Part shown: one piece after another, positions 12,970 through 35,168 of the stretch
How the letters are laid out: each line of letters opens with the position of its first letter
How positions within the stretch are numbered: position 1 is the first letter of the stretch
NCBI GenBank assembly: GCA_019116485.1
Contig: DXBO01000176.1
Span: 1-35,168, forward strand
DNA length: 35,168 nucleotides
Source: Candidatus Gemmiger excrementavium
GTDB lineage: Bacteria; Bacillota; Clostridia; Oscillospirales; Ruminococcaceae
Reading direction: 5' to 3'
The notes under the pieces: model-generated
What the model saw: only the letters and a program-made list of their open reading frames with translations
Told to the model about the DNA's origin: nothing
Databases searched by the model: none
Position numbers and translations under genes: made by a program

Positions 12970-12988
12970 GAGACAAGAGGGAGTCACC

Positions 12989-13741: not shown

Positions 13742-13757
13742 TGGAAGGAGCAACTCT

Positions 13758-16821: not shown

Positions 16822-17985
16822 GTGAAGATTCTGCTGATCCACTGCCATTACCGGCTGCCCGGGGGCGAGGACGCGGTCTTTGCCGCCGAGCGCGCCCTGC
16901 TGGAACGGCACGGCCACACGGTGGTGGTCTATGAGCGCAGCAACGAGGAGGCCGCCCACGGCTTTGCCAGACTGCTGCTGCCCCTGCGGGCCGTGTGGAA
17001 TTTTTCCGCCGCCCGGGCGGTGCGGGAACTGATCCGGCGGGAACAGCCCGACGCCGTGCACATCCACAATACCCTGCTGCTGCTCAGCCCCGCCGTGGTC
17101 CGCGCCGCCAAACAGGGCGGCGTGCCGGTGGTGCAGTCGCTGCACAATTTCCGGCTGTTCTGCCCCAACGGCATTTTGCTGCGCGGCGGCCAGGTCTGCG
17201 AAGACTGCCCCCACAGCGGGCTTTTTTGCGCGGTGCGCCACCGGTGCTACCGGGGCAGCCTGGCCCAGACGGCGGTGGTGGCGCTGGCCTACGCCCTGCA
17301 CCGGCGGCTGGGCACCTGGCGGGGGGTCACCATGGTGGCCCTGACCGACTTTGACCGGCAGAAACTGCTGGAATACAACCGGCTGCGCCCCACCTTTGAC
17401 GCGGAGCGGCTGGTGGTCAAGCCCAATCCGGTGGCCCTGCCCGATACCGAACCCCTGCCCTGGGAACAGCGCAAAAACCAGATGGTCTTTGCCGGGCGGC
17501 TGGAGGAACTGAAAGGTCTGCCCACCGTACTCAAAGCCTGGGCCCTGCTGGGGGACGCCGCCCCTGAACTGCTGGTGGCGGGCGAAGGCCCGCTGGGGGA
17601 TTGGGCGCGGCAGCATGCCGGGCCCCGGGTGCGCCTGTTGGGCCAGCTGCCCCCGGCGGAACTGCACCGCCTGATGGGGGAAAGCCGGGCCGTGCTGGCC
17701 GCCAGCCTGTGTTTTGAGAGCTTTGCCCTGGTCCCGGCGGAGGCCCATGCCCTGGGCACGCCGGTACTGGCCAGCGACCTGGGCAACGTGGGGGCTTCAG
17801 TGCGGCCCGGCATCGACGGGCTGCGCTTTGCCCCCGGGGATGCCGCAGCGCTGGCCGGGGCGGTCAAGGCCCTGGGGGCCATGCGGTTCGACTGCACGGC
17901 CATTGCCGCCGCTGCCCGCCGCGCCTACCGGGAAGAAGAAAACTACCGCGCCCTGCTGCGCTTATATACAAAGGAAGTACGATGA
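16822..17985 (+). CDS. Glycosyltransferase family 4
   Basis: The 387-residue GT-B enzyme starts at GTG 16822 behind AAAGGGGG. The N-terminal domain has ILLIHCHYRLPGGEDAVFAAE and HIHNTLLLLSP, then QSLHNFRLFCPNGILLRGG with a cysteine cluster (CEDCPHSGLFC, HRC) that recurs in this GT4 subgroup. The donor-binding C-terminal domain has FAGRLEELKGLPTVLKAW, LLVAGEGPLGDW and the E-x7-E type motif FESFALVPAEAHALGTPVLAS. It transfers a sugar from a nucleotide donor in the cytoplasm to a growing lipid-linked glycan. It is the first gene of the locus and overlaps the next by four bases (ATGA). Donor and acceptor are unknown. Confidence 0.88.
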   Translation: MKILLIHCHYRLPGGEDAVFAAERALLERHGHTVVVYERSNEEAAHGFARLLLPLRAVWNFSAARAVRELIRREQPDAVHIHNTLLLLSPAVVRAAKQGGVPVVQSLHNFRLFCPNGILLRGGQVCEDCPHSGLFCAVRHRCYRGSLAQTAVVALAYALHRRLGTWRGVTMVALTDFDRQKLLEYNRLRPTFDAERLVVKPNPVALPDTEPLPWEQRKNQMVFAGRLEELKGLPTVLKAWALLGDAAPELLVAGEGPLGDWARQHAGPRVRLLGQLPPAELHRLMGESRAVLAASLCFESFALVPAEAHALGTPVLASDLGNVGASVRPGIDGLRFAPGDAAALAGAVKALGAMRFDCTAIAAAARRAYREEENYRALLRLYTKEVR

Positions 17986-18962
17986 ACCAACTGTACCGTG
18001 CCCTGCACATGCCGCCCCAGCGGCTGCTGCGCAAACTGACGGGCGAAAAAGAGATCTATACCATCGCCGTGCGGCCGCTGCCCGCGGCGGAAGGCGCCGA
18101 GCCGCTGCCTGCCCTGGGGGCCGCGCCCTACACCCCGCTGCCCGGGCGGGCGGGCTTCTGGTACGCCGACCCGCTGCTCTACCGCCGGGGCGGGGCCCGC
18201 TGGCTTTTTGCCGAGGCCATGGACCTGGCCGCAGGCAAAGGCCGCATCGAGGTGTGCACCCTGGCCGACGACGGCACGGCGGGAGACTGGCAGGTGGCGC
18301 TGGAAGAGGAGTTTCACCTGTCTTTCCCCACGGTGTTTGACTGGAACGGCGAAACCTGGATGATCCCCGAGACAGGGGCGGACCGCAGCCTGCGGCTGTA
18401 CCGGTGTGTGGAATTTCCTGCCCGGTGGGAGCTGGCCCAGCGCTTTGCGGTGGACGCCGAACTGTGCGACGCCATCCTGGTGGACCGCACCCCCGACGCC
18501 CTGACCCTGCTGTGCAGCGAGGTCAAGGCCGACGACCCCTTTTTTGTGCGGTGGCGCCGTCTGGTGCTGCACCGGGGCCCGCTGCCCCGCAGCGAAGTGC
18601 CCGGGGCGGAACCCCCGCCCGAGGAAGCCGCGCCCCCCTTTGCCCTGCTGCCGGACGAACCCTTCAACCTGCAGCACCGGGAATTTGACCTGGTAAGCCG
18701 CAACGCCGGGCCGCTGTTTGTGCTGGGCGGGCAGGTCATCCACCCCACCCAGGTCAGCACCCGGGTGGACTACGGCGTTTACCTGCAATTCCTGGCCCGC
18801 CGGGGCAGTTCCGAGGTGCCGCTATGTGCCGCCTTGCCCCAGAGCGTGACCATCGCCGGGGTGGACCCCCGGGATATCATCGGCATCCATACCTACTGCC
18901 GGGACGATGTGCTGGAAATCATCGACGGGCGGTATCTCACAAAGGTGAAAACAAGCGAATGA
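17982..18962 (+). CDS. GINT1_N-like beta-propeller protein of the polysaccharide locus
   Basis: The 326-residue soluble protein has no signal peptide. It shows repeated beta-propeller blades of the type found at the N-terminus of glucosamine inositolphosphorylceramide transferases: FWYADPLLYRRGGARWLFAEAMD, a short turn, HLSFPTVFDWNGETWMIPETGADRSLRLYRC, a later VLGGQVIHPTQVSTRVDYG, and a C-terminal GIHTYCRDDVLEIIDGRY. Glycosidase-like five-blade propellers of families 43, 32 and 68 share the aspartate and glutamate placement (ADP, PET). Its role is unknown; a sugar-binding or transferase accessory role is likely given the GT4 genes on both sides. ATGA overlaps join it to both neighbours. Confidence 0.65.
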   Translation: MNQLYRALHMPPQRLLRKLTGEKEIYTIAVRPLPAAEGAEPLPALGAAPYTPLPGRAGFWYADPLLYRRGGARWLFAEAMDLAAGKGRIEVCTLADDGTAGDWQVALEEEFHLSFPTVFDWNGETWMIPETGADRSLRLYRCVEFPARWELAQRFAVDAELCDAILVDRTPDALTLLCSEVKADDPFFVRWRRLVLHRGPLPRSEVPGAEPPPEEAAPPFALLPDEPFNLQHREFDLVSRNAGPLFVLGGQVIHPTQVSTRVDYGVYLQFLARRGSSEVPLCAALPQSVTIAGVDPRDIIGIHTYCRDDVLEIIDGRYLTKVKTSE

Positions 18963-20074
18963 AAACCATTGCCATCCCGCAGTTCTACTGCGGGCCATCG
19001 GGCCGCAAGGGCCTGTATAACCGGCAGGAGGTGGGCCTGGCCCGCGCCTTTGCGGCGCTGGGGGCCCGGGCCGTGGTGCTGTACCCGGCGCCAGGTGCCG
19101 CCGCGCCGGAATTTGAAGAGCCGGAACCCAATGTAAAGGTCTGGTATCTGCCGGTGCTGGCCCTGAGGTCCCAGGCCTTTTTCAAAAGCTGGCACATCCT
19201 GCTGGAAGAAGGGGTGGACGCCGTGCATGTGATGGGGGACAATTCCCCCGGCGTGCCCAGCCTCTACCGGTTCTGCCGCCGCCACGGCATTCTGTTCTAC
19301 AGCCAGCTGGGCGCGCTGAAAAGCACCTCCAACCACGGCGCGGCGCGGTGGGTCATGGACCTGTTGCTGCGCCGCAATCTGGCCGTTTACCGCAAAACCC
19401 CCACCTATGCCAAGACCCCGGCGGTGGCCGCCGAACTGCAAAGCCTGGGGGTGCCCTGCACCGGGCTGATGCCTGTGGGGCTGGATACCGCCATCATCCC
19501 CGATGTCCCTGCCGAGAAACCCAAGCTGCGGGGCATCCTGGGCCTGGACCCGGCGGCGAAGATTTTTGTGTTTGTGGGCCGGCTGGACCCCTACAAGCGC
19601 CCGCTGGACCTGGTGCCGCTGCTGCAGGCGGCGCCGGGGTGGCTGGCGGTCATCATCGGCCAGGGGGAACAGGGGGATGAACTGCGCCGCGCCCTGCGGG
19701 AAGCCGGGCTTGCCGCCCGCTGCCGGCTGATCCCCAAGCTGGCCAACACCGCCGTGCATGTGTACTACCATGCCTGCGATGCTTTCGTGAACCTGAACGA
19801 CCAGGAAATTTTCGGCATGAGCCTGCTGGAAGCCATGTACGCGGGCTGCCCGCCGGTGGCCCGCCACGCCCCGGGACCCGACCTCATCATCGAAAACGGG
19901 GTCAGCGGCCTTTTGTGTGATTCGGTGGCCGAACTGGCTGCCGCCCTGGACCGGGCCGACGAGGCCATGGGGGTGGCGGCCCAGAAACGCATCAACGAGC
20001 ATTTCCTGTGGCAGAACAGCGCCGAGGTGGCGCTGGCGATGCTCAGCGCCAAGGGGGTGACAGGCCGTGGATAA
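18959..20074 (+). CDS. Glycosyltransferase family 4
   Basis: The 371-residue GT-B enzyme starts at the ATG at 18959, overlapping the previous stop (ATGA). The N-terminal half has NRQEVGLARAFAALGARAVVLYP and VDAVHVMGDNSPGVPSLYRF. The donor half has FVFVGRLDPYKRPLDLVPLL, AVIIGQGEQGDELRRAL, and NDQEIFGMSLLEAMYAGCPPVARHAPGPDLIIENGVSGLL, where the two glutamates match the GT4 E-x7-E motif. Length and motifs are normal. It overlaps the next gene by eight bases. Sugar specificity is unknown. Confidence 0.9.
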   Translation: MKTIAIPQFYCGPSGRKGLYNRQEVGLARAFAALGARAVVLYPAPGAAAPEFEEPEPNVKVWYLPVLALRSQAFFKSWHILLEEGVDAVHVMGDNSPGVPSLYRFCRRHGILFYSQLGALKSTSNHGAARWVMDLLLRRNLAVYRKTPTYAKTPAVAAELQSLGVPCTGLMPVGLDTAIIPDVPAEKPKLRGILGLDPAAKIFVFVGRLDPYKRPLDLVPLLQAAPGWLAVIIGQGEQGDELRRALREAGLAARCRLIPKLANTAVHVYYHACDAFVNLNDQEIFGMSLLEAMYAGCPPVARHAPGPDLIIENGVSGLLCDSVAELAAALDRADEAMGVAAQKRINEHFLWQNSAEVALAMLSAKGVTGRG

Positions 20075-20972
20075 CGACAACGCTTTGCTGGAAGCGGCCC
20101 GCAACCTGTACAAAGGGCTGCGCTTCGGCTGGAAATACCGGGGCGTCCCGGTGCTGGACGCCGGGGCGGGCAACGACCTGGCCCGGGCGGCGGTGCAGGC
20201 GGGCAAGCCGTTTCTGTTTGGCCGCTGCGGCGCCACCGAGATGCGCACCGTGGCCGACCAGCGGGAACACGGCGGCCACTTTACCGACCACACCCGGCAG
20301 GATATCCGCAACCTGTCCGGCGTGTTCCCCACCGATGACGATACGTTGAACCGCTTCTGCGACCTGTATACCGGCTGTGCCCGGGGCGCCGACCTGCTGG
20401 CCTTATGGGATGTGGGCGACGAGCGGGAGGTCATCCGCGGCTGCCGGAACACCCGCTTCACCCAGCTGCGTGCCCTGGAACCCTATTACCACCAAAATCC
20501 CTGGAGCGCCGCGCTGGCGGGCAAAAAGGTGCTGGTGGTGCATCCTTTCAAACACACCATCCTGCGGCAGTATGCCCGGCGGGAACAGCTGTTCCCCGGC
20601 ACCGATATCCTGCCGGCGTTTGCCGAGCTGACGGTGGTACAGGCTGTGCAGGGGCTGGCCGGGCAGGATACCGGCTACGCCAGCTGGTTCGATGCCCTGG
20701 CCGCTATGCAGGCAGCGATGGACGCGGCGGATTATGAGGTGGCCATCATCGGCGCCGGGGCCTACGGGCTGCCGCTGGCAGCCCACGCCCGGGATACCGG
20801 TCATGTGGCCCTGCAGATGAGCGGCGCCACCCAGCTGCTGTTCGGCATCCGGGGCAAGCGGTGGGACACCCACCCGGTGATCTCGAAACTGTACAACGAC
20901 GCCTGGGTCCGCCCCGACGAGAGCGAGGGCATCGCCCACCGGGAAAAGGTGGAGGGCGGCAGTTACTGGTAA
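20067..20972 (+). CDS. Possible GT-D-like glycosyltransferase
   Basis: The 301-residue cytoplasmic protein starts at GTG 20067 with AAGGGGG ten bases upstream. FLFGRCGATEMRTV (R53, G55, E58) sits where DUF1792/GT-D enzymes have R-x-G-D-G-E, the metal-binding D-x-E turn. Here the aspartate is replaced by alanine while the glutamate is kept. Later segments KKVLVVHPFKHTILRQY and YEVAIIGAGAYGLPLAAHARDTGHVALQMSGATQLLFGIRGKRW look like two alpha/beta nucleotide-binding units, and the end TPVISKLYNDAWVRP-type segment recurs in such proteins. Gene context strongly favours glycosyl transfer. The assignment rests on weak similarity by eye and could be another transferase fold. Confidence 0.5.
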   Translation: MDNDNALLEAARNLYKGLRFGWKYRGVPVLDAGAGNDLARAAVQAGKPFLFGRCGATEMRTVADQREHGGHFTDHTRQDIRNLSGVFPTDDDTLNRFCDLYTGCARGADLLALWDVGDEREVIRGCRNTRFTQLRALEPYYHQNPWSAALAGKKVLVVHPFKHTILRQYARREQLFPGTDILPAFAELTVVQAVQGLAGQDTGYASWFDALAAMQAAMDAADYEVAIIGAGAYGLPLAAHARDTGHVALQMSGATQLLFGIRGKRWDTHPVISKLYNDAWVRPDESEGIAHREKVEGGSYW

Positions 20973-21078: not shown

Positions 21079-21150
21079 GAAGAACCAAACGGGCGTTGTC
21101 GGCTGTGTTGTTTGCATCCCATCCCTGTGTATTCGTCTGGAGTTTCTTCG

Positions 21151-21174
21151 GTTCCTTCTTTGCAAAGAAGGAAC
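21151..21174. repeat. Perfect 24-bp palindrome
   Basis: GTTCCTTCTTTG is followed directly by its exact reverse complement. It is AT-richer than its surroundings and could be the tip of an inserted repeat or a cruciform/stem-loop. Confidence 0.7.
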
Positions 21175-21184
21175 AAGGCAACGT

Positions 21185-21203
21185 GGGAACAAAAATTGTT
21201 CCC
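21185..21203 (+). promoter_or_regulatory. Stem-loop directly before the ribosome binding site of the third GT4 gene
   Basis: GGGAACAA and TTGTTCCC form an 8-bp stem with an AAA loop, ending three bases before AAGGAAGG (21206-21213). It could protect the mRNA 5' end after processing or end a transcript weakly. No regulatory ligand is suggested. Confidence 0.45.
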
Positions 21204-21220
21204 CCAAGGAAGGTCACACT

Positions 21221-22327
21221 ATGCGCATTCTGATGATCAGCAACCATCTGGGCGTGCAAAGCGGTGTGCAGCGCTATGTGCAGAACCTGCTGCTCCACCT
21301 GGACACTGCCCGCTACCAGATCGACCTGTTCGTGGGCCAGTGCCCGCCGGACCAGGCCAGCACCGCCCCCGCGCTGCAGGCCAGGGGCGTGCACATCATC
21401 GCGGTGCCCGACCACAAAAAAGACCGCATCCGGGCGCTGTGGCACCACCTGCGCACCCACAAAGACTACGATATCATCCACTACCACACCGCCAGCAAGA
21501 TCGGCGCGCCGGTCTGCGGCATGATGCGGGCCCTCTGCCCCAAAGCCAAAATCATCGTCCACAGCCACATCGTCTACCCGCCCCTGACGCTGACCTGGCG
21601 GGCCGCCCACGGGGTGTACCAGCTCTTTGCCGATTATTTCCTGGGCTGCGGCGTGGCCGCCGGGCGGTTTGTATTCGGGGACCACATCGACCAGAAACCT
21701 AATTTTGCCGTGGCCTGCAACGCCGTGGACCAGGGCCGCTTTCATCCCGATGCAACGGCCCGGGCATCCACCCGTGCCCGGTACGGCATCGCGGATGCCG
21801 AGCGGCTGGCCGGGTTTGTGGGGCGGCTCAACCACCAGAAAAACCCGCTGTTCCTGATGGAAGTGTTTGCCGCCCTGGCCAAAACCGACCCCGCCTGGAA
21901 ACTGATGCTGGTGGGCACCGGCGAGATGGAAGGCGAAATGCGCGCCGCTGCGGCCCGCCACGGCCTTACGGACCGGGTACTCTTTGCCGGGGTGCAGAGC
22001 GACGTGCCCGCCTTTATGAACGCCTTTGATGTATTTTTGCTGCCCAGCAACTTTGAGGGCAGCCCCGTCACCCTGGTGGAAGCCCAGGGCTGCGGTGTGC
22101 CCTGCCTGGCCTCCACCAACGTGCCGGACGACGGCGCCGTCACCGACCTGGTGCACTTTCTGCCCCTGGACGCCCCGCTGACCCAGTGGGCTGCCACGGC
22201 GCAAAGCATCGCGGGCCGCGGCCCCCATGCCGACCACTGGGCGGAACTTTCCGCCGCCGGGTATGAGCTGCACACCGCCGCCGCCCGCATGGAACAACTC
22301 TACGACCAACTGGGAGGCCAGCCATGA
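21221..22327 (+). CDS. Glycosyltransferase family 4
   Basis: The 368-residue GT-B enzyme starts at the ATG at 21221 with GGAAGG seven bases upstream. Its N-terminus (MRILMISNHLGVQSGVQRYVQNLL) and DYDIIHYHTASKIGAPV belong to the EpsF/CapM-like GT4 group. The donor domain has GFVGRLNHQKNPLFLMEVFAAL, LMLVGTGEMEGEMRAAA and LLPSNFEGSPVTLVEAQGCGVPCLAS with the E-x7-E pair. It is the first gene after the repeat-bearing gap and overlaps the fucosyltransferase gene by four bases (ATGA). Donor and acceptor are unknown. Confidence 0.9.
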   Translation: MRILMISNHLGVQSGVQRYVQNLLLHLDTARYQIDLFVGQCPPDQASTAPALQARGVHIIAVPDHKKDRIRALWHHLRTHKDYDIIHYHTASKIGAPVCGMMRALCPKAKIIVHSHIVYPPLTLTWRAAHGVYQLFADYFLGCGVAAGRFVFGDHIDQKPNFAVACNAVDQGRFHPDATARASTRARYGIADAERLAGFVGRLNHQKNPLFLMEVFAALAKTDPAWKLMLVGTGEMEGEMRAAAARHGLTDRVLFAGVQSDVPAFMNAFDVFLLPSNFEGSPVTLVEAQGCGVPCLASTNVPDDGAVTDLVHFLPLDAPLTQWAATAQSIAGRGPHADHWAELSAAGYELHTAAARMEQLYDQLGGQP

Positions 22328-23241
22328 TCTACGCCGAACTGGCCGGGGGCCTGGGCAACCAGATGTTTATTTATGCCTTTGCCCGGGCGCTGGGCCTGCG
22401 CTGCCGGGAACCCGTCACCCTGCTGGACCGGCAGGACTGGCGGGACGGCGCCCCCGCCCACACCGCCTGCGCGCTGGACGCGCTGTGCCTTTCACCGGAG
22501 GTAACCATCCTGACCCAGCCGGGCTTTGCCAAACGGCACCTGCCCCGGCAGAACGCCGCCAAAGCCCTGATGATCAAGTACGAGCAGCGCAAAGGTTTGA
22601 TGGCCCGGGACTGGCACGGCTGGGAAAGCCGCTGCGCCCCGGTGCTGAACCTGCTGGGGCTGCACTTTGCCACTGACGGCTATGTGCCGGTGCGCCGGGG
22701 CCCTGCCAAGGATTTTCTGGCCTGGGGGTATTTCCAGGGGGAAGCCTACTTTGCCGACTGCACCGATACCATCCGCCGGGAACTGCGCCCCCAAACCCCG
22801 CCCGCAGGCCCCTGGGCAGAGGCCATCCGCGCCGCCGCTTACCCGGTGGCGCTGCACCTGCGCCGGGGGGATTACTGCAAACCGGAAAACGCCATCCTGC
22901 AGGTGTGTACCCCTGCCTACTATACCCGGGCTGCCGCCGCTGTGGCTGCCGCCCGGCCCGACGCCACCCTGTTCGTCTTTTCCGACGATGTGGACTGGGC
23001 GCGGCAAAACCTGGCCACGGCGGGGCTGCCGGTGGAATTTTTGCCCCGGGGCGACGCCGTGGGGGATATGGCCCTGATGAGCCTGTGCCGGGGATTCATC
23101 CTCAGCAACTCCACCTACAGCTGGTGGGCCCAGTACCTGGCCGACCCGGGCCGGGCGGTATGGGCCCCCGACCGGTGGTACGCCCACACCAAACAGACGG
23201 CGCTGTACCAGCCGGACTGGAATCGTATCGAGACCCAATAA
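22324..23241 (+). CDS. Alpha-1,2-fucosyltransferase (GT11)
   Basis: The 305-residue enzyme has all GT11 landmarks: AGGLGNQMFIYAFARALG at the N-terminus, HLRRGDY at 178-184 (the H-x-R-R-x-D-Y GDP-fucose motif), FVFSDD near 218-222 and SNSTYSWWA at 261-269. It transfers fucose from GDP-fucose to O-2 of a sugar, usually galactose, giving an H-antigen-like Fuc(alpha1-2)Gal unit. Length is typical. It is coupled by ATGA overlap to the GT4 gene. No GDP-fucose synthesis genes (gmd, fcl, fkp) are in the window. With the GT6 gene at 25798 it suggests a blood-group-like glycan. Confidence 0.93.
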   Translation: MIYAELAGGLGNQMFIYAFARALGLRCREPVTLLDRQDWRDGAPAHTACALDALCLSPEVTILTQPGFAKRHLPRQNAAKALMIKYEQRKGLMARDWHGWESRCAPVLNLLGLHFATDGYVPVRRGPAKDFLAWGYFQGEAYFADCTDTIRRELRPQTPPAGPWAEAIRAAAYPVALHLRRGDYCKPENAILQVCTPAYYTRAAAAVAAARPDATLFVFSDDVDWARQNLATAGLPVEFLPRGDAVGDMALMSLCRGFILSNSTYSWWAQYLADPGRAVWAPDRWYAHTKQTALYQPDWNRIETQ

Positions 23242-23260
23242 ACGGAAAGGACGTGCCGCC

Positions 23261-24259
23261 ATGCCCCGGTTTTCCATCATTGTGCCGGTGTACAACGTGC
23301 AGAACTACCTGGCCGCCTGCGTCAAAAGCTTGGCCGAACAGCAGGGCCCCCCGGACTGGGAGTGCATTCTGGTGGACGACGGCTCCACCGACCTGTGCCC
23401 CCAGCTTTGCGATGCTTTTGCCGCCGAGATCCCCGGCGTGCAGGTCATTCACCGGGAAAACGGCGGCCTGGCCGCCGCCCGCAACACCGGCCTGAGAGCC
23501 GCCGCGGGGGAGTGGGTACTGTTCCTGGACAGCGACGACGCCATGGCCCCCGGGCTGCTGGCGGCGCTGCGCCGGGAGCTGGACGCCCACCCCGGGTATG
23601 ACTGGTACATCGGCAAGCATCTGGAATGGCAGCCCGACGGCACCCTGACGGAACACGCCGGGCTGCGGCTGCTGCCCGGCCCCTTTGCCAGCAGCGACTA
23701 CGCCCAGCGGCTGCGGGCGCTGTATACGGCGGGGCACTGGTCGGTGTGGAAATACTGCCTGCGCCGCGCCTGGCTGGCCGAAAACCGGCTGCGCTTCTGG
23801 CCCGATGTGCGCTGGGCCGAGGACTGGCCCTTTGACCTTTTGCTGCTGACCTGCTGCGAGCGGCTGTATTTTCTGGATGTTGTGTTCACCCATTACCGGG
23901 TGGGGCGGCAGGGCAGCCTGCTGACCGACGCGAAAAACCTGCCCAAACGGTTTGACGCCCTGGCCGCTGCCCAGCGGCACCTGGCCAGCCTGGCCGCCAT
24001 TGGCCGCATAGACGCCGCCACCTACGCCGTCATGCGGGATGCCGCCGCCGACGTGTTCTGGCCCCAGGCCCGCACCGCCGCCGTAAGGGACAAAGGCATC
24101 CGCCGGGCCTGCCTGCCGGGGCTGCGGCGTCTGCGCATGCTGTACGCCCACGGCACCGAGGTAAAGACCCGCCGGGACTGGCGCATGTTCCAGACGATGA
24201 TGCGCCTGCTGGGCCCCCGGCTGACCCTGTTCCTGGCCGCCCGCCTCAAGAAAGGATAA
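23261..24259 (+). CDS. Glycosyltransferase family 2
   Basis: The 332-residue GT-A enzyme has FSIIVPVYNVQNYLAACVKSL, the nucleotide-binding DDGSTD (39-44), ENGGLAAARNTGL and the metal-binding DSDD (90-93), then WAEDWPFDL, the E-D-W type catalytic-base region. The C-terminal part is helical and basic. It adds a sugar to the lipid-linked glycan in the cytoplasm. GGAAAGGAC precedes the ATG, 19 bases after the fucosyltransferase stop. Sugar unknown. Confidence 0.9.
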   Translation: MPRFSIIVPVYNVQNYLAACVKSLAEQQGPPDWECILVDDGSTDLCPQLCDAFAAEIPGVQVIHRENGGLAAARNTGLRAAAGEWVLFLDSDDAMAPGLLAALRRELDAHPGYDWYIGKHLEWQPDGTLTEHAGLRLLPGPFASSDYAQRLRALYTAGHWSVWKYCLRRAWLAENRLRFWPDVRWAEDWPFDLLLLTCCERLYFLDVVFTHYRVGRQGSLLTDAKNLPKRFDALAAAQRHLASLAAIGRIDAATYAVMRDAAADVFWPQARTAAVRDKGIRRACLPGLRRLRMLYAHGTEVKTRRDWRMFQTMMRLLGPRLTLFLAARLKKG

Positions 24260-24265
24260 TCCGCC

Positions 24266-25798
24266 TTGCGAACCAGACGAACCCTTATCAATATGGCCTA
24301 CGCGGTGGGCTCCAGCCTGCTGCTGCTGTTGCTGGGCCTGGTGACCCGGCGGCTGCTGGTGTACAACTTCGGCACCCAGATCAGCACCGCGTCCCAGGTA
24401 GTCACCCAGCTGTTCAACTTTTTCTCTATCGCCGAGTTCGGCGTGGGCAGCGTCATCAGTTACCGCCTGTATGAGCAGATCGCCGCCCAAAATGCGGAAA
24501 AGATCAGCAAATACATGTCCATGTACAAGTGGGCCTACCGGGCCGTGGGCGTGGCCATCGCGGCGCTGGCGCTGCTGGGCGCCGCCGCCCTGCCCTGGAT
24601 CATGCCCGATGTGCCGCTTCTCACCGGGTACACGGTGTACGGCCTCAATGTGGTATCCACCCTGTGCAGCTATTTTTTGGTCACCCGGCGGCTTATGTAC
24701 ACCTGCACCCAGCAGGGGTATCTGTGCACCCGCATCGACTTCTGCTTCAACGTGCTCACCTCCCTGGCCAAGATCGCCGTGTCTTTGTGGCTGCCCAACT
24801 ATGTGCTGTATTTCAGCGTGGCCATCGTCTGCAACGTCTGCGCCAACCTGGTCATCGCCCGGCGCTTCCGCAAGGATTTCCCCTACGTCCACGATGTGAA
24901 GGTGACCTTGCAGGACTTCCAGGACCTGGGCATCTTCCACGATCTGCGGTATTACCTGGTCCACCGGCTGTCCAACACCATCTACGGTTCTTCGGACACC
25001 ATCGTCACCTCCCGCATGGGCGGGTCGGTGCAGACCACGCTGCTGGGCAACTACACCAACATCTCCACCAGCGCCACCGACCTGGGCAACAAGATCATGG
25101 ACAGTTTTGCCGCAGCCATCGGCAACATCGTCTACGACAAATCCGCCGCCGCCAACGCCCACGACAAACAGGTGTTCTGGGGCATGGACCTGTTCAGCTA
25201 CTTTTTCGGCAGCTTTGTGGCCACCGCCTACTTCTGCCTGTTCCAGCCTTTTATGGAAGCCTGGATGGGCCCCGACTGGCTGCTGCCCATGGGCTTTGTG
25301 CTGGTGTTCTGCCTGAACGAGTATGTGGGCTGGAACCACCGCATGCTGGGGTCCTACCGGGCGGTGCTGGGCCACTTTGAGCAGGACCAGTGGTTCATGG
25401 TAGCCTCCGCCGGCGTCAACCTGGCCCTCAGCTTTGCCCTGTTTCCGGTCTTTGATATCACCGGCGCTCTCATTGCCACCGTGGTGGCCCACTGCATCAT
25501 GTGGGCAGGGCGCATCGTGGTGGTGTTCCGCCGGTATATGCAGGGCAGCATGGGCCATTACCTGTGCATGCAGGGGCTGCACCTGGTCACGCTGGCCGTC
25601 TGCCTGGGCGGCACCTGGGCCTTGTGCCGGGCGGTGCCCCTGGAAGGCTGGCTGGGCCTGGTGCCCCGGGCTTTTATCGTCTGCCTGGCGCCCAACCTGT
25701 TCAACCTGCTGGTCTACGGCTGGGGGCCCGACGCCGCCTACCTGCGCCGGTACGCCGCCGGTGTGTGGCAAAAACTCATCCATAAAAGGAGCGCATGA
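24266..25798 (+). CDS. Wzx-type polysaccharide flippase
   Basis: The 510-residue polytopic protein has about twelve or more membrane helices in the MATE/MVF/polysaccharide-transporter style, starting NMAYAVGSSLLLLLLGLVTRRLLVYNFG and continuing FNFFSIAEFGVGSVISYRLYEQIA. It should flip the undecaprenyl-linked oligosaccharide to the outer face. The TTG at 24266 is chosen because AAAGGA lies nine bases upstream; an ATG at 24293 is a shorter alternative. It overlaps the GT6 start region. Presence of a flippase supports a Wzx/Wzy-type route, though no clear Wzy is in the window. Confidence 0.85.
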   Translation: MRTRRTLINMAYAVGSSLLLLLLGLVTRRLLVYNFGTQISTASQVVTQLFNFFSIAEFGVGSVISYRLYEQIAAQNAEKISKYMSMYKWAYRAVGVAIAALALLGAAALPWIMPDVPLLTGYTVYGLNVVSTLCSYFLVTRRLMYTCTQQGYLCTRIDFCFNVLTSLAKIAVSLWLPNYVLYFSVAIVCNVCANLVIARRFRKDFPYVHDVKVTLQDFQDLGIFHDLRYYLVHRLSNTIYGSSDTIVTSRMGGSVQTTLLGNYTNISTSATDLGNKIMDSFAAAIGNIVYDKSAAANAHDKQVFWGMDLFSYFFGSFVATAYFCLFQPFMEAWMGPDWLLPMGFVLVFCLNEYVGWNHRMLGSYRAVLGHFEQDQWFMVASAGVNLALSFALFPVFDITGALIATVVAHCIMWAGRIVVVFRRYMQGSMGHYLCMQGLHLVTLAVCLGGTWALCRAVPLEGWLGLVPRAFIVCLAPNLFNLLVYGWGPDAAYLRRYAAGVWQKLIHKRSA

Positions 25799-26646
25799 TG
25801 CCGAAAATCGGGATGCTCTACCTCTGCACCGGGAAATACACGGTGTTCTGGCCGGAATTTTACCGCAGCTTTGAACAGAATTTCCTGCCCGGCTGCCAAA
25901 AGGAATATTTCGTCTTTACCGACGCCGCCCGCATCGAGGGCGAGGACGCCCCCAACGTCCACCGCATTTTCCAAGAGGCCTACGACTGGCCCTACAGCAC
26001 CCTGCGCCGGTTTACCATTTTTCTGACGCAGGAGGCCGCGCTGGCACAGTGCGATTTCCTCTTTTTCTTCAACGCCAACCTGGTCTGTGAAAAGACCGTT
26101 ACAGCGCAGGAATTTCTGCCCCGGCCCGAACAGGGCGAAAACCTGCTGCTGGTGCAGCAGCCGGGGTTCTGGAACAAAAAGCCGATGTTCTACTCCTATG
26201 ACCGCAACCCCCGAAGCACCGCCTACATCCCCTACAATTGCGGGCGGGATTATGTGTCCGGCGGGCTCAACGGCGGCACGGCGGCGGCTTTTCTGGCCCT
26301 GTGCCATGAACTGGAACGCCGCACCGAGCAGGACCTGGCAAACGGCGTTATTGCCCTGTGGCACGACGAAAGCCAGCTGAACCGCTACGCCGCCGAGCGC
26401 AGCGATTACCGCCTGCTGACCCCCGCCTACTGGTATCCCGAGGGGTGGGACCTGCCCTTTGAGGCCAAGATCGTGGTGCGCAACAAGGCCCGCTACTTTG
26501 ACGTGGCGGCGGTCAAACACAAAGAGACCCGACCCCAGAGCTGGCTTGTCCGCAAGTGGGGGGCTTTCCGGGAAAATTATCTGCCCTACCTGTGGTATGC
26601 CCGGGATGCGCTGCTGCGCAAAGGGCTGAAAGAGGCGGCCAAATGA
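25798..26646 (+). CDS. GT6 (blood-group A/B family) alpha-1,3-Gal/GalNAc transferase
   Basis: The 282-residue protein matches the catalytic core of family GT6: IGMLYLCTGKYTVFWPEFYRSFEQNFLP, EAYDWPYSTLRRFTIF, FFFNANLV (N92-A-N94), YVSGGLNGGT (152-161) and ANGVIALWHDESQLNRY (181-197). Vertebrate members have D-x-D and need manganese; bacterial members have N-x-N, as here, and those studied are metal-independent. The family adds Gal or GalNAc alpha-1,3 to galactose, often one carrying alpha-1,2-fucose. The position equal to human ABO residue 268 is Gly, as in the GalNAc (A) enzyme; this is a weak hint only. ATG 25798 has GGAG six bases upstream; ATG 25795 is the alternative. No signal anchor, so it acts in the cytoplasm. 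Confidence 0.9.
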   Translation: MPKIGMLYLCTGKYTVFWPEFYRSFEQNFLPGCQKEYFVFTDAARIEGEDAPNVHRIFQEAYDWPYSTLRRFTIFLTQEAALAQCDFLFFFNANLVCEKTVTAQEFLPRPEQGENLLLVQQPGFWNKKPMFYSYDRNPRSTAYIPYNCGRDYVSGGLNGGTAAAFLALCHELERRTEQDLANGVIALWHDESQLNRYAAERSDYRLLTPAYWYPEGWDLPFEAKIVVRNKARYFDVAAVKHKETRPQSWLVRKWGAFRENYLPYLWYARDALLRKGLKEAAK

Positions 26647-28361
26647 CGCGGCGCGGGTGGAGAGCCGCCTGGGCGGTATTGTTTCTTGTCTGTGCCGCCG
26701 TCATGGTGCGCCAGGTGTTTGTAGGGCTGGAGATCGACGAAGTATACGCCGTGTCCCTGGGGTTCCGGCTGGTGCAGGGGGACCGCCTGTTTGTGCAGAT
26801 GTGGGAACCCCACCAGCTCTGTGCCCTGCCCCCGGCGCTGCTGGTATGGCTGTACCGGGCGCTCACCGGCACCACCACCGGGCTGCTGGTCTTCGTCCGG
26901 GTGGTGATGCTGGTCTGCAAGGCCGCCCTGTGCTGGGTGTTTTACCGGGAATTCCGGCGGCAGGCAGGGCCCGGCGGTGCGGGTCTGGCCGCGCTGGTGC
27001 TGTTCCTCTATGCGCCCAAGTGGTTTCTGGGGCCGGATTACATCGGCCAGCAGTTCTATTTTACGGTGGCGGCCTTTTTGTGCTTTCACCACTATGTCAC
27101 CCGTGGTTTCCGCCGCCCCTGGCTGGTGGCGGTGGGGGCGGTGTGCGCCTGTTTCAGTTTTCTGGCCTACCCCCAGAGCGCGGCGGCGTTTCCGTTTTTG
27201 TGGCTGGGGCTGTTGTTGCTGGGCCGCCGGGGTGGCGAGGCGCGTTTCCTCGGCATTCCCCGGGGCGCCTGGGTGCTGCTGGGCAGCTGTGCCGTCTGCG
27301 GCGGGGCGTTTTTGCTCTGGGCGCTGCAGGGTTTCGGATTTGATGTGGGGGCTTTCCTGGCACGGGTCAAACTGATCCTGGACGACCCCCAGTACGGCTT
27401 TACCGCCGCCCAGCGACTGGCCCTGCTGGCACAGCAGGCGCTGCCGGTGGCGCGCAGCCTGTTGTGGCCGCTGCTGGCGGCAGGGGTGCTGTGCGCACTG
27501 GTGCGCTGGCGGCGGGGCACCTTGCCCGGCGGGGCCGGGCAGCTGCTGACGCTTTGGGGCCTGCTGGCCATTGCCCAGTGCGCGGTGCGGGCGGTGGCGG
27601 ACGGCAGCCTGGATGAACGGCAGTTTGTGCCGGTGCTGGTGCTGGCCGGGGCCTGGGCTTTCCGGTGCAACCGGGGCCGGCCCGGCGCGGCGGCGCTGTT
27701 CTGGCTGGGATATCTGCCCGGGCTGGCCGCCTATGTGCTGATCCTGCGCTCCACGGTGCTGGGGCTGCCCGCCACCTTTATGTACCTGACCTGGCCCGCT
27801 TTATGCGGGCTGGTGGTGCCGCTGCAAGCGGAACCCCGGGCCGCCCGGTGGACGGCCCGGGCTTGCCTGGGGGCTATGCTGGTGTTTTTGGCGGTATGCC
27901 GGTTGTGGTGTGTCCAGACCACCGGCTGGAAAAGCCATACCCTGGCCGATACCCCGCTGGTGACCATCGAAAATGGCCCCGCCAAGGGCATCCGGGCCGA
28001 TGAACAGGCCGCCGACATGCAGGAGTGCCTGTACGAAGCGCTGGCACCTTTTGCCGGGCAGGCGGTGCTGCAGGCCATTGGCGAACAGAACGGCCTGGGG
28101 TTCCTGATGGCCGACGGCACCCTGACGGTGGCCCAGGCTTCGGTGATCTCGGGCACCGACAGCGACCCGCGCTTTGAGGACTATTATTCGCTGGTGCCCG
28201 GCAAACTGCCCGACGTGATTTTGTACGACGATGCCGAAGTGCGGGATATGGCCGCTTTCCACACCTGGCTGGAAGAAAACTTTGCCATCACCGACCGATA
28301 CACCGTCACCCACGGCACCGCCAGTTTGCAGGTGATGGTGGTGGACGGCTGGGCCGAATAA
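26643..28361 (+). CDS. Large polytopic membrane protein, GT-C/GT39-like
   Basis: The 572-residue protein has about ten to twelve hydrophobic helices and a soluble C-terminal part of about 130 residues. After the first helix comes GLEIDEVYAVSLGFRLVQGDRLFVQMWEPHQ, where an acidic pair in the first outer loop, followed by a G-D-x-L-F segment, matches GT-C enzymes of the PMT/ArnT type that use polyprenyl-phosphate sugars outside the membrane. A GT2 enzyme resembling dolichyl-phosphate mannose synthase follows in the locus and could supply such a donor. It overlaps the GT6 gene by four bases. It could instead be a divergent polymerase. Confidence 0.6.
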   Translation: MTRRGWRAAWAVLFLVCAAVMVRQVFVGLEIDEVYAVSLGFRLVQGDRLFVQMWEPHQLCALPPALLVWLYRALTGTTTGLLVFVRVVMLVCKAALCWVFYREFRRQAGPGGAGLAALVLFLYAPKWFLGPDYIGQQFYFTVAAFLCFHHYVTRGFRRPWLVAVGAVCACFSFLAYPQSAAAFPFLWLGLLLLGRRGGEARFLGIPRGAWVLLGSCAVCGGAFLLWALQGFGFDVGAFLARVKLILDDPQYGFTAAQRLALLAQQALPVARSLLWPLLAAGVLCALVRWRRGTLPGGAGQLLTLWGLLAIAQCAVRAVADGSLDERQFVPVLVLAGAWAFRCNRGRPGAAALFWLGYLPGLAAYVLILRSTVLGLPATFMYLTWPALCGLVVPLQAEPRAARWTARACLGAMLVFLAVCRLWCVQTTGWKSHTLADTPLVTIENGPAKGIRADEQAADMQECLYEALAPFAGQAVLQAIGEQNGLGFLMADGTLTVAQASVISGTDSDPRFEDYYSLVPGKLPDVILYDDAEVRDMAAFHTWLEENFAITDRYTVTHGTASLQVMVVDGWAE

Positions 28362-28439: not shown

Positions 28440-29234
28440 ATGGAAAAATTGCTGGTCTTTATTCCCGCTTACAACTGCGAAAAACAGGTCCCCCGGGTGC
28501 TGTCCCAGCTGCTGGACCCCCGCATTGCCCCCTGGGTGGGGGAGTGCATCGTGGTGAACAACCGCTCCACCGACGGCACCGAGGCCGCCGTCCAGGACTG
28601 GCGCCGCCGCCACCCGGAGGCCCCGGTGCGCCTTTTGCGCAACGACAAAAACTACGGCCTGGGCGGCAGCCACAAGGTGGCTTTTGGGTATGCTGCCGCC
28701 CATGGGTATGAGCATCTGGTGGTGCTCCACGGCGACGACCAGGGCGCCATCGCGGACCTTTTGCCCATCCTGCAGGACGGCACCTACAAAAAATATGATT
28801 GCTGCCTGGGGTCCCGCTTCATGAAGGGCAGCCGCATCCAGGGGTACAGCACCCTGCGGGTGGTGGGCAACTACGGCTTCAACGCCCTGTTCAGCCTGGT
28901 GGCCCGCCATGCCATCACCGACCTGGGCAGCGGGCTGAATCTGTACGCCGTGGCGCCCCTGAAAAATGAATACTACAAAAAGTTCCCCGATACGCTGTAT
29001 TTCAACGACTGCATGATCCTGGCCCTGTGCCAGCTGAAACAGAAGGTGCTGTTCTTCCCCATCAGCTGGCGGGAGGAAGACCAGGTCAGCAACAACAAGC
29101 TCACCAGCTTCGGCATCAGCCTGCTCAAACTCTGTGGGCGGTATCTGCGCAGCCCCAAAGCTTTTGTGACGCGGGAGTGGCGCAGCAATATCATCGACGA
29201 CTACACCTACACCGAAATTCCGGTGCAGCAGTAA
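28440..29234 (+). CDS. Glycosyltransferase family 2, DPM1-like
   Basis: The 264-residue GT-A enzyme has LLVFIPAYNCEKQVPRVLSQL, VVNNRSTDGTEAAV, NYGLGGSHKVAFGYA and VVLHGDDQG, where D-D stands for the usual metal-binding D-x-D, then GSRFMKGSRIQGYS, as in polyprenyl-phosphate hexose synthases. It lacks C-terminal membrane helices. It may make a polyprenyl-phosphate sugar for the GT-C-like membrane proteins of the locus, or act directly on the glycan. AGAAGGAG precedes the ATG. The next gene's ribosome binding site overlaps its stop codon. Confidence 0.82.
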   Translation: MEKLLVFIPAYNCEKQVPRVLSQLLDPRIAPWVGECIVVNNRSTDGTEAAVQDWRRRHPEAPVRLLRNDKNYGLGGSHKVAFGYAAAHGYEHLVVLHGDDQGAIADLLPILQDGTYKKYDCCLGSRFMKGSRIQGYSTLRVVGNYGFNALFSLVARHAITDLGSGLNLYAVAPLKNEYYKKFPDTLYFNDCMILALCQLKQKVLFFPISWREEDQVSNNKLTSFGISLLKLCGRYLRSPKAFVTREWRSNIIDDYTYTEIPVQQ

Positions 29235-29246: not shown

Positions 29247-30275
29247 ATGAAAGTTCTGGTAACGGGCGCCGCCGGGTTCATCGGCGGTCAGCTGTGGCAC
29301 GCGCTGTGGAAGCGCGGCGACGAGGTCGTGGGCATTGATAACTTTTCCTATGGCAATCTGGACAACCTGAAGTTTGAGGACCACGATTTCGGCCCCGAGG
29401 TGCGCCGCATGGACATCCGGGACCGGGAAGCCATCCCCGCCCTGTTTGAGGCGGAGAAGTTCGACGTGGTGTACAATATTGCGGGCATCGCCCCGCTGCC
29501 CGACTGCCAGAGCGACCCCGTCCAGGCGGTGGAAGTGAACACCCTGGGCCTGGTGCATCTGCTGGAATGTGCCCGCCGCACCGGCGTCAAGCAGCTGGTG
29601 CAGGCTTCCACCAACGCCATGTATGAAAACGAAACGGAATTTCCCACGGTGGAAACTTCCTTCAACCCGCCCACGCTCATCTACCCCAACACCAAATACT
29701 GCGGCGAGCGCTTCTGCCAGAGCTTTGCCGATACCTACGGCATGACGGTGACCTGCCTGCGCTTTGCCAACGTCTACGGCCCCCACATCGACTGCCTGCG
29801 CAAGCAGCCGCCCTTTGTGGGGTATATGATCCGGGAACTGTACTATGGCCGCACGCCGGAATTCCACTCCGACGGCAACCAGCGCCGGGATTATATCTAT
29901 GTGGATGACCTCATCGCCCTGGCCCTGCGGGTGGTGGAACGGCCTCAGCCCGGCTTTGACGCGGTGAACGTTTCCAGCAACCAGAGCTACTCGGTGCGGG
30001 AACTGTACGCCACCGCCTGCCGCCTGATGGGCAAGGAGATCGAAGCCAAGTACTGCCCCTCCAGCCATTACTGGTCCAAGTACCCCGAACTGTACGGCGG
30101 CGCCTACGGCATCAAGGAGGAAATTCTGGACCACGAGGTGAACAAGTTCAGCCTGTGCGACAACGCCCACGCCAAGGAAGCCTACGGCTGGGTGCCCCAG
30201 GTGGATATCGAGACCGGACTTTCCCGGGTCATCGCCGAAGAATGCAAAATGCTGGCCGCCCGGGACAACGCCTGA
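29247..30275 (+). CDS. NAD-dependent sugar epimerase/dehydratase
   Basis: The 342-residue extended short-chain dehydrogenase has the NAD loop GAAGFIGG (7-14), VVYNIAGIAPLPDCQSDP, the catalytic YPNTK (Y-x3-K), LRFANVYGPH and the substrate-site RRDYIYVDDLIALAL. It probably changes the stereochemistry or oxidation of a nucleotide sugar; UDP- or dTDP-sugar epimerases and 4,6-dehydratases share this outline. AAGGAGG lies seven bases upstream of the ATG. It is followed by a nucleotidyltransferase, which suggests the two act on the same activated sugar. Confidence 0.88.
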   Translation: MKVLVTGAAGFIGGQLWHALWKRGDEVVGIDNFSYGNLDNLKFEDHDFGPEVRRMDIRDREAIPALFEAEKFDVVYNIAGIAPLPDCQSDPVQAVEVNTLGLVHLLECARRTGVKQLVQASTNAMYENETEFPTVETSFNPPTLIYPNTKYCGERFCQSFADTYGMTVTCLRFANVYGPHIDCLRKQPPFVGYMIRELYYGRTPEFHSDGNQRRDYIYVDDLIALALRVVERPQPGFDAVNVSSNQSYSVRELYATACRLMGKEIEAKYCPSSHYWSKYPELYGGAYGIKEEILDHEVNKFSLCDNAHAKEAYGWVPQVDIETGLSRVIAEECKMLAARDNA

Positions 30276-30299: not shown

Positions 30300-31052
30300 A
30301 TGTCCAAACTGCATCTGATTTTGCCCATGGCGGGGCGGGGCAGCCGGTTTTTTGAAAACGGCTTTGTCTGCCCCAAACCCCTCATCGAAATTCACGGCAA
30401 GCCCTTCTTTTATTGGGCGACCCGCAGTGTGGAAAAATTCGTGGACTGCGCCGACCTCACCTTTGTGGTGCTGGAGGAGCATATCCGGGATTTTGCCATC
30501 GACGAGAAAATCCGGGCTTACTGGCCGGACGCCCGCATCGTGGCCCTGCCGGAGGTGACTGCCGGGGCGGCCATCACGGCGCTGAAAGGGGCCGAGGGCC
30601 TGCCCGACGGGGAACCGCTGCTCTTCAACGACTGCGACCATCTGTTCCTGTGCCGGTCCTTCAACGAATTTTGCGCCCAAGGCAACTTTGCCGAAGGCCC
30701 GGCGGGGGCGCTGCTCACCTTTGAGAGCGATTCCCCGGCCTACAGCTACCTGCAGTACGGGCCGGACGGCAACGTCTGCCACACGGTGGAAAAACAGGTG
30801 GTCAGCCACGATGCCATCTGCGGCGCCTACTACTTCAAGGACAAAAAAACCTACGCCGACGCCTGCGCCCGGTATCTGGACGCCTGCGAGTACAAGGAGT
30901 TCTTTGTCTCGGGCATTTACAACGTGCTGGCGGAACACGGCGCGGCGGTGCGCGGCTTTGCCACCGATCTGCACCTGCCCTTCGGCACGCCGGACGAATA
31001 CCGCGCCGCCGAGACCCCCGAAAACGCCGCCGGCTTTGAGGCGCTGCTGTGA
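30300..31052 (+). CDS. Sugar-phosphate nucleotidyltransferase
   Basis: The 250-residue GT-A-like NTP transferase has the signature LILPMAGRGSRFFENGFVCPKPLIEIHGKPFFYWA, with G-x-G-S-R and K-P-L as the nucleotide-phosphate site, LLFNDCDHLF as the metal-binding D-x-D equivalent, and GAYYFKDKKTYADA. It activates a phosphorylated sugar or alcohol as a nucleotide diphosphate. It has no left-handed beta-helix, so it is a single-domain form. Near neighbours include a kinase-like domain (32707) and a HAD phosphatase (34649), forming a likely activation set. AAGGAGG precedes the ATG. Confidence 0.85.
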   Translation: MSKLHLILPMAGRGSRFFENGFVCPKPLIEIHGKPFFYWATRSVEKFVDCADLTFVVLEEHIRDFAIDEKIRAYWPDARIVALPEVTAGAAITALKGAEGLPDGEPLLFNDCDHLFLCRSFNEFCAQGNFAEGPAGALLTFESDSPAYSYLQYGPDGNVCHTVEKQVVSHDAICGAYYFKDKKTYADACARYLDACEYKEFFVSGIYNVLAEHGAAVRGFATDLHLPFGTPDEYRAAETPENAAGFEALL

Positions 31053-31078
31053 GCAGCGCCCCGGTAAAGGAGAACTTC

Positions 31079-34635: not shown

Positions 34636-34648
34636 AAGGAGTTTTTGC

Positions 34649-35168
34649 ATGCTGATCTGTGTCGATCTGGACGGCACCCTGCTGGATACGGTGCCCGCCA
34701 ACGGGGCGTCCTACCGGGCCGCCCTGGAGGAAGAGGGGTTCACCGTAACCGACGAATACTACGCCGCCCACTGCAACGGCGGCCATTACAAGACCTTCCT
34801 GCGCCCGCTGATGGGCGGCGATCCCGCCCCCGAGGCCGTGGAGCGGGTACATGACCGCAAAAAGGAGCTTTACAGCGATTTTTTGGACAAAGTACGGCCC
34901 AACACGGCGCTGTTCCAGACCCTGCAGGCGCTACGGGCCGCCGGCCACCGGCTGGCCTGTGTCACCACCGGCAGCCGCCGCAACGCCACCGAGGTGCTGA
35001 CCCATTTTGGCTGCGTGTGCTGGTTCGACCTGATCCTCACCAGTGAGGACGTGACCCGCAACAAACCCGACCCCGAAGGGTATCTGAAAGCCATGGCCCA
35101 TTTCGGCGTTACCCCCGCCGAAACCCTGATCTTTGAGGATTCCGGCCCGGGACTGGCGGCGGCGCTGG
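34649..35168 (+). CDS. HAD-superfamily phosphatase/phosphomutase, cut by the window end
   Basis: The first 173 residues are present and the frame is open at the last base. Motif I is DLDGTLLDT (D6 nucleophile, D8), motif II VTTGS, the motif III lysine NKPDPEGY, and motif IV EDSGPG. A helical cap lies between motifs I and II, as in beta-phosphoglucomutase/phosphoglycolate phosphatase types. It probably removes or moves a phosphate on a small sugar or alcohol. AAAGGAG is nine bases upstream of the ATG. It follows the kinase fusion by 13 bases and probably shares its pathway. Confidence 0.88.
   Translation, partial: MLICVDLDGTLLDTVPANGASYRAALEEEGFTVTDEYYAAHCNGGHYKTFLRPLMGGDPAPEAVERVHDRKKELYSDFLDKVRPNTALFQTLQALRAAGHRLACVTTGSRRNATEVLTHFGCVCWFDLILTSEDVTRNKPDPEGYLKAMAHFGVTPAETLIFEDSGPGLAAAL

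Follow-up and report, generated by a model that had tools for sequence, protein, structure and literature searches.

Contig DXBO01000176.1 of Candidatus Gemmiger excrementavium (assembly GCA_019116485.1), analysed here over its whole 35,168 bases as the window, carries an operon in which genes for a GT11 fucosyltransferase and a GT6 glycosyltransferase lie close together. We consider it likely that this operon builds a surface glycan on which the GT11 enzyme performs H-type fucosylation and the GT6 enzyme then an A/B-type transfer, with the fucose coming from a cassette elsewhere. Such a product had been put forward in the initial annotation, and it is the best reading of the enzyme families, the folds, the genus-wide synteny, the guanosine diphosphate (GDP)-fucose cassette of relatives and the linkage of GT6 to GT11 in bacteria and on viral contigs; the linkages and the donor sugar stand as predictions. 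In the 2.53-Mb draft to which it belongs (genome label G000; 177 contigs, 94% complete), the window is contig C117. Gemmiger we take to be a genus of the class Clostridia, and the description of its bearer as Gram-positive is a taxonomic assignment only.

In the mechanism that we propose, the operon would assemble a surface oligo- or polysaccharide repeat in Gemmiger species. GT11 would add L-fucose (Fuc) in alpha1,2 linkage to a galactose (Gal) of the growing lipid-linked glycan, giving an H-type disaccharide, and GT6 would add N-acetylgalactosamine (GalNAc) or Gal in alpha1,3 linkage to that galactose as well. A 510-aa membrane protein would then move the resulting trisaccharide, of blood-group A or B type, out of the cell. 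A manA-manC-fcl-gmd cassette at another chromosomal site would supply GDP-fucose, and GalE would supply uridine diphosphate (UDP)-Gal. We infer the linkages, galactose as the acceptor, the cassette in the window's own genome, the flippase, the carrier and the display at the surface. The core of the operon comprises four genes:

22324..23241, + strand: GT11, predicted GDP-Fuc:Gal alpha-1,2-fucosyltransferase, 305 aa (PF01531 95.9 bits, phrog_2644 117 bits)
23261..24259, + strand: GT2 glycosyltransferase, 332 aa, which may build the acceptor (PF00535 125 bits)
24266..25798, + strand: hydrophobic protein of 510 aa, putative flippase for a lipid-linked glycan (at the threshold used, 5 hydrophobic segments; position conserved)
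25795..26646, + strand: GT6, predicted alpha-1,3-GalNAc/Gal-transferase, NAN type, class A, 283 aa (PF03414, NF041524, likeness to BoGT6a)

These belong to a same-strand series of 16 genes that starts at 16822 and reaches the contig end. Most neighbours overlap or lie at most 25 nucleotides (nt) apart, the larger gaps being 248 nt before the GT4 gene at 21221..22327 and 78 nt before the second GT2 gene. The GT4 and GT11 genes overlap by 4 nt, as do the 510-aa and GT6 genes, with 19 nt between GT11 and GT2 and 6 nt between GT2 and the 510-aa gene. Thus, the complete GT11 and complete GT6 of one operon, as first annotated, are borne out by scores over curated cut-offs, by the quoted motifs and by the tight packing. 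A GT2 and the 510-aa gene do stand between them; the name flippase for the latter, which found no match in Pfam, NCBIfam and PDB searches, is putative, drawn from hydrophobicity and a reading of the sequence.

The enzymes and their linkage

The GT6 protein is intact (PF03414 81.4 bits against a cut-off of 25; NF041524 274.5 against 250) and matches BoGT6a, the GT6 enzyme of Bacteroides ovatus, with a phmmer E-value of 3.7e-60. The structural overlay proposed with the initial annotation was carried out: the model (predicted local distance difference test, pLDDT, 95.1) superposes on BoGT6a with template-modelling (TM) scores of 0.91-0.95 by target length and 0.68-0.81 by query length, at a root-mean-square deviation of 1.1-2.6 and 39-44% identity (17 listed chains), and on human GTA/GTB with a TM score of about 0.7. 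Its conserved sites include Arg72, the NXN motif as N93-A-N95, H190-D191-E192 (in WHDESQLNRY) and Lys231, and from 111 onward its numbering is that of BoGT6a. An offset of +111 presumably converts these numbers to those of human ABO. E303 and positions 235, 266 and 268 agree with that offset (PMC4202792, excerpt). The glycine previously placed at the human-268 position is indeed there, as Gly157; its BoGT6a equivalent touches O3' of GalNAc (PMC3961637, Table 2, excerpt), and position 268 itself does not decide the donor (PMC4202792, excerpt). The lean to GalNAc is still a weak one. Ser155, at the Leu/Met266 place, is small like Ala155 of BoGT6a, and this side chain weakly suggests GalNAc; GalNAc would be somewhat favoured over Gal. 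BoGT6a acting on 2'-fucosyllactose yields an A-like product (PMC3961637, excerpt), and for the window enzyme we predict alpha1,3 transfer of Gal or GalNAc.

The GT11 protein is likewise intact (PF01531 cut-off 23.9) and carries the motifs HLRRGDY and SNSTYSWW; H178, R180, G182 and D183 are invariant across 15 Gemmiger rows, some of which read HWRCGDY. The nearest folds to its AlphaFold2 model (pLDDT 92.9) in Foldseek are AtFUT1, NodZ and POFUT1, all remote (TMq 0.42-0.51, prob 1.00); heptosyltransferases and MshA also occur among the 50 listed, none of which is described as a GT11 enzyme. The model is thus closest, remotely, to GDP-fucose-dependent enzymes. Both genes are under purifying selection, with ratios of nonsynonymous to synonymous substitution rates (dN/dS) of 0.11-0.22 in eight pairs with the window and up to 0.33 in other pairs.

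GT6 was found in 29 of 35 same-genus genomes and in none of 260 other relatives searched; a phylum-wide draw returned it in 2 of 398 genomes, one being the window's own. GT11 occurs in 30 of the 35, and in all 29 GT6-positive genomes, window included, the two genes share an operon (divided over two contigs in G009; in G005 the contig ends before the GT6 slot). Since they stand together in the operon of 28 other Gemmiger genomes, a chance pairing is ruled out. Gene order is mostly conserved, with rearrangements in G012 and G025; the equivalent of the GT2 at 23261..24259 follows GT6 in G003 and was not found in G007, and for G006 and a number of other genomes the fetched stretch does not reach the downstream genes. 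By name, the GT6-bearing relatives are mostly Gemmiger, with a few Subdoligranulum/Faecalibacterium, and include G. formicilis ATCC 27749, MCC627 and G. gallinarum DSM 109015.

The linkage extends far beyond the genus. It was searched for with a GT11 profile made from Gemmiger sequences alone, around 49 non-Gemmiger genome loci (48 of the best 80 of 252 loci, the other 32 being Gemmiger by their titles or by shared contigs, plus one from the phylum-wide draw) and the best 80 of 329 viral GT6 loci; the best 80 of at least 548 viral GT11 loci served as a control. GT11 lies near GT6 in 40 of the 49 genome loci: within 200 nt in 24, fused in 1, at up to 1.5 kb in 6, at up to 5 kb in 7 and farther in 2. 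On viral contigs it lies within 6 kb in 70 of 80 loci, 47 of them within 200 nt (35 of 41 clusters at 80% identity). In the control sets, GT11 stands at 2 of 63 viral gmd loci, once as a weak 24-bit match, and GT6 at none of them; of the 80 viral GT11 loci, 8 have GT6. This asymmetry, with GT6 usually near GT11 and GT11 seldom near GT6, is what an H-dependent A/B enzyme predicts, and the linkage supports Fuc(alpha1-2)Gal as the acceptor of GT6.

In Ca. Magasanikbacteria, GT6 and GT11 share one 526-residue frame (L194:1226-2803; PF03414 103 bits, PF01531 110 bits), possibly a natural one-chain H plus A/B synthase, as far as a single draft sequence, or a lost stop codon, allows. GT2-GT11 fusions lie near GT6 in four loci (L161, L163, L164 and L172), and L196 encodes a GT6-GT2-GT4 fusion. 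Among the best 80 of 252 loci, 20 further GT6 loci are titled Lachnospiraceae, Clostridiales or Clostridia, and of 50,697 phage records 71 carry GT6, 60 of them Synechococcus phages. The viral enzymes show 30-40% identity to the window GT6, and 78 of 80 have the vertebrate-like DXD motif; NXN is found in 80 of 81 genome loci and NAD in one. An especially close link between vertebrate ABO and phage GT6 was rejected, as both viral proteins tried match BoGT6a best; viral L226 scores 139 bits against human GTA, to which the window GT6 scores 76 bits. As of 2014, bacterial GT6 was known from 36 species and two cyanophages, with all but one of the bacteria Gram-negative and DXD in two (PMC3961637, excerpt). 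Among the matches listed from the open-licence literature, no title or abstract opening dealt with Gemmiger blood-group-type glycans or a GT6-GT11 fusion. A 2010 GT6 review by Brew and others may well mention GT6-GT11 neighbours.

GT6 allele classes and their exchange

Among the operon copies of GT6, three classes can be told apart: A in 15 genomes (the window's among them), B in 9 (with G011 as a variant) and C in 5. At 24 window positions invariant in A, and at one gap column, classes A and B have no residue in common; positions 121-126, 155 and 189 belong to these, and class B has Phe, Cys or His for Trp189 and Pro for Gly124. In the GT6 tree, B and C each form one clade (Shimodaira-Hasegawa-like approximate likelihood ratio support, SH-aLRT, 100 and 99). 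Placed on a tree built from five further genes of the operon, the classes require 7 changes against a minimum of 2, and well-supported branches force at least 5 for class B; this tree was made by a 'quick' method, with two genes missing in 10 of 29 rows, and depicts operon genes rather than species. Such scatter argues that GT6 alleles have been repeatedly exchanged between species.

Comparisons of close genomes point to the same process. G. formicilis ATCC 27749 (G006, class B) and MCC627 (G017, class A), sisters in the operon tree, are 81-94% identical in the five genes upstream of GT6, 53% in GT6 and 58% in the next gene. Between G004 and G026, six genes stand at 86-96%, the two before GT6 at 73-79%, GT6 at 51% and the next gene at 62%. 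With identity dropping at GT6 and the gene after it, the pattern suggests that a tract centred on GT6 was replaced, rather than that it drifted gradually. The 574-aa protein encoded next to GT6 diverges with it in six of seven A/B pairs (58-63%; G000/G013 75%), as if the two genes were often exchanged as a unit. Exchange of class would presumably alter the sugar.

We tentatively propose, while rating it as somewhat doubtful, an ABO-like polymorphism: a conserved H-antigen operon with an exchangeable GT6 slot, whose classes differ at the equivalents of GTA/GTB 232-237, 266 and 300. Pressure from phages or antibodies would drive swaps of whole alleles between species, the source being a GT6-GT11 pool shared with phages, and related gut strains would display different A/B-type tips.

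A second GT6 lies elsewhere in nine Gemmiger genomes. The copies L109-L112 and L114 form a separate clade (YVCGG[IV]NGG), away from the single GT11 of those genomes; in G007, the second copy (L113) is a class A GT6 and the operon copy is of class B.

The product and its GDP-fucose weighed

Several observations weigh against an A- or B-type product made with endogenous GDP-fucose; they concern the substrate sites, the family names, loci lacking the linkage and the fucose genes themselves. Some fit an alternative in which GT11 and then GT6 act and no terminal ABH epitope results, with the fucosylated residue internal or not galactose, or another UDP-sugar used, and hence no binding of anti-A, anti-B or anti-H reagents; we hold this to be unlikely. 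Class A GT6, the window's included, has Gln122 at the His122/human-233 place, where histidine is kept in all but two of 30 other rows compared and where His122 of BoGT6a contacts a GalNAc lying in the acceptor site (PMC3961637, excerpt). In the alignment, the alpha1,3-Gal-transferase chain 2vxl also has Gln at this place, and its name specifies N-acetyllactosamine, a non-fucosylated acceptor. In class B, the replaced Trp189 and Gly124 correspond to sites that govern donor and acceptor choice in human GTA/GTB. The NCBIfam name of the GT6 subfamily (NF041524) is 'glucosyltransferase', and at least six other transferase candidates in the operon make for a complex acceptor context. Further, the GT11 of H. 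hepaticus forms alpha1,3-fucose instead (PMC4202792, excerpt). GT11 is not nearby in 9 of the 49 genome loci (four of the nine with less than 2 kb of flank on one side) and 10 of the 80 viral GT6 loci, nor in the flank, up to 10 kb, of six second-GT6 loci from the scan of genome contigs. Against the alternative stand the fold and catalytic residues of GT6, which are those of BoGT6a, and the tie of GT6 to GT11 across bacteria and viral contigs.

The initial annotation had cast the glycan as a possible H plus A/B antigen mimic, and mimicry as its function is the part that we do not uphold. That the locus was selected because its epitope disguises the bacterium as ABH-bearing gut mucosa would suit the gut habitat and a GT6 present in 29 of 35 genus genomes and 2 of 398 phylum-wide, the window genome included. 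We nevertheless find it improbable, as the pair is found in Treponema and Gastranaerophilales and also in cyanophages, Chitinophaga and Magasanikbacteria (of the Candidate Phyla), the last three of which are unlikely to meet ABO antigens, and a review holds that host ABO and the ABO antigens carried by gut microbes probably have no relation to each other (PMC7449879, excerpt). The linkage of GT6 and GT11 across bacteria, viral contigs and one fused protein rather suggests that prokaryotes have long had the blood-group-type pair, and with it the blood-group trisaccharide, as a glycan motif that is no special device of host mimicry.

The search for GDP-fucose genes, whose absence the initial annotation had named as a refuting result, came back empty when taken literally: the 94%-complete assembly of the window has neither gmd (best 80 of 415 bits) nor fcl (best 58.7 of 500), and fkp was not found. 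Salvage of fucose through Fkp was rejected since PF07959 is absent from the draft. The epimerase encoded in the operon was likewise rejected as a gmd or fcl product, scoring 37.5 bits where the gmd cut-off is 415 and 46.2 bits where that of fcl is 500. Across the 35 Gemmiger genomes, gmd exceeds its cut-off in 27, one of which, G028, has no GT11. No genome reaches the fcl cut-off; 26 score 470-498, a contig-end fragment in G001 scores 171 and the rest at most 70. With a presence threshold chosen after this gap was seen, fcl occurs in 27 of 30 GT11-positive and 0 of 5 GT11-negative genomes (Fisher p 1.7e-4, with no correction for relatedness or incompleteness). The GT11-positive genomes without fcl are the window's, G011 and G019, and the latter two have GT11 and GT6, yet no gmd or fcl.

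The position of the cassette offers an explanation. In G026 it runs groEL, groES, manA, manC, fcl, gmd, starting about 0.3 kb past the groESL point, and groEL adjoins it in 7 of 19 fcl/gmd loci (G004, G013, G014, G020, G021, G026 and G034), with groEL not within the stretch in the remaining 12. These seven genomes fall within the window's 11-genome clade of the operon tree, whose other members besides the window's genome are G001, G007 and G019, and make up seven of eight close relatives examined; G007 has its cassette away from groEL, G001 was left out of the check (4.1-kb cassette contig), and in G019 (82% complete) neither a cassette nor a groESL match was found. Only groESL fragments were found in G011. 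In the window's genome, groESL occupies bases 12-2119 of contig C54, which ends 11 bases beyond the match, on the cassette side; in G027 (99% complete; without GT11, GT6 and fcl) the groESL contig continues with no cassette match. As C54 stops where the cassette follows in most close relatives, the missing genes are best read as an assembly gap, and GalE is present in the window's genome (440 bits). That the locus is instead dead, or uses another donor, in a species that has lost GDP-fucose synthesis would fit the missing gmd, fcl and fkp and the displaced cassette of same-clade G007, but is very improbable given the break 11 bases past groESL, the cassette after groEL in seven relatives and the dN/dS of 0.11-0.22 in window pairs.

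The wider operon and known systems

Around the core, the run encodes the following, the last gene being truncated by the contig end:

16822..17985, + strand: GT4 glycosyltransferase, first glycosyltransferase gene of the run (PF13692 77.4 bits, PF00534 74.1 bits)
17982..18962, + strand: GINT1_N-like transferase (PF24793 80 bits)
18959..20074, + strand: GT4 glycosyltransferase (PF00534 91.6 bits; start inferred, listed open reading frame (ORF) from 18824)
20067..20972, + strand: GT-D-fold-like glycosyltransferase candidate (PF22882 E 0.0015, 18.4 bits, under the cut-off of 27)
21221..22327, + strand: GT4 glycosyltransferase (PF00534 87.5 bits; start inferred inside listed ORF 21068-22327)
26637..28361, + strand: 574-aa membrane protein with multiple spans, perhaps a polymerase or a GT-C transferase (8 hydrophobic segments; no family match over cut-off)
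28440..29234, + strand: second GT2 (PF00535 49 bits)
29247..30275, + strand: NAD-dependent sugar epimerase/dehydratase (TIGR01179 124.8 of 262.3 bits, below the GalE cut-off; best PDB match UDP-glucose 4-epimerase)
30300..31052, + strand: nucleotidyltransferase (phmmer 4evw E 2.9e-14; PF12804 26.9 bits, just under the cut-off of 27)
31049..32710, + strand: 553-aa membrane protein, present in some of the other species only
32707..34635, + strand: LPG_synthase_TM-like and APH-like protein (PF03706 60 bits; PF01636 21 bits, below cut-off)
34610..35168, + strand: HAD hydrolase, truncated by the contig end (PF13419 104.8 bits)

As candidates for flippase or export and for polymerase or carrier attachment, the operon encodes membrane proteins without a family match, family searches having given the 510-, 574- and 553-aa proteins no name over cut-off. 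No initiating transferase was found near the operon among ten L204/L205 proteins tried, some of them probably wrong reading frames. A promoter scan returned 4 sites against 3.4 expected, which is chance level, and terminator-like sites numbered 32 against 17.7 expected. At 30300-35168, a nucleotidyltransferase, a membrane protein, a protein with LPG_synthase_TM and APH-like parts and a HAD hydrolase hint at a pathway, linked to the glycan, for a phospho-substituent or an activated alcohol. Upstream, window positions 5800-14441 hold a sensor kinase, a Na/Pi cotransporter with a PhoU domain and a pst-type phosphate ABC transporter with phoU; in G026, a Na/Pi cotransporter is likewise close to the operon. 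With these phosphate genes as neighbours, phosphate control of the glycan is possible.

Contact with gut bacteria is the presumed origin of ABO antibodies, and feeding of E. coli O86 raised anti-B in people (PMC7449879, excerpt). If our reading is true, the source and specificity of such antibodies become directly testable, with a near-universal genus locus and strains such as ATCC 27749 and MCC627 to compare, and the GT6-GT11 set offers ready enzymes for making blood-group sugars. A link between Gemmiger, norovirus and ABO was considered and rejected, G. formicilis being merely named among the relatives of rising and falling bins (PMC7683401, excerpt).

The system is known in kind, H plus A/B-type enzymes having been described in a bacterial glycan locus; what is new is the setting and the exchangeable GT6 slot. 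BoGT6a (PDB 4ayj/4cj8), an A-type alpha1,3-GalNAc-transferase, shares family, fold, NXN, HDE and Lys231 with the window GT6, which in contrast has Gln122 for His122 and Ser155 for Ala155, is 37 residues longer, comes from another phylum and holds a fixed position in a genus-wide operon with GT11. Human GTA/GTB share the GT-A fold, and GTA the Gly at the 268-equivalent; the window enzyme differs in having NXN instead of DXD, about 25% identity and no hydrophobic anchor. Two parallels are drawn by description rather than by sequence. The A-type GT6 BgtA of Helicobacter mustelae, a Gram-negative bacterium, acts on Fuc(alpha1-2)Gal (PMC4202792, excerpt), and the blood group B-active O-antigen locus of E. 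coli O86 unites the GT11 WbwK and the GT6 WbnI on one glycan (PMC4202792, excerpt). Like the window, O86 thus has GT11 and GT6 in one glycan locus; it is, however, the Gram-negative O-antigen of one serotype, whereas the locus of Gemmiger is genus-wide with a predicted product. Finally, the cyanophage S-CAM9 (KU686205.1; PHROGs 2644 and 3317; L447) has adjacent GT11 and GT6 genes with a sugar epimerase, and close by, as in the window, a nucleotide-sugar pyrophosphorylase and a HAD protein, while its viral kin carry DXD in 78 of 80 loci where the window GT6 has NXN.

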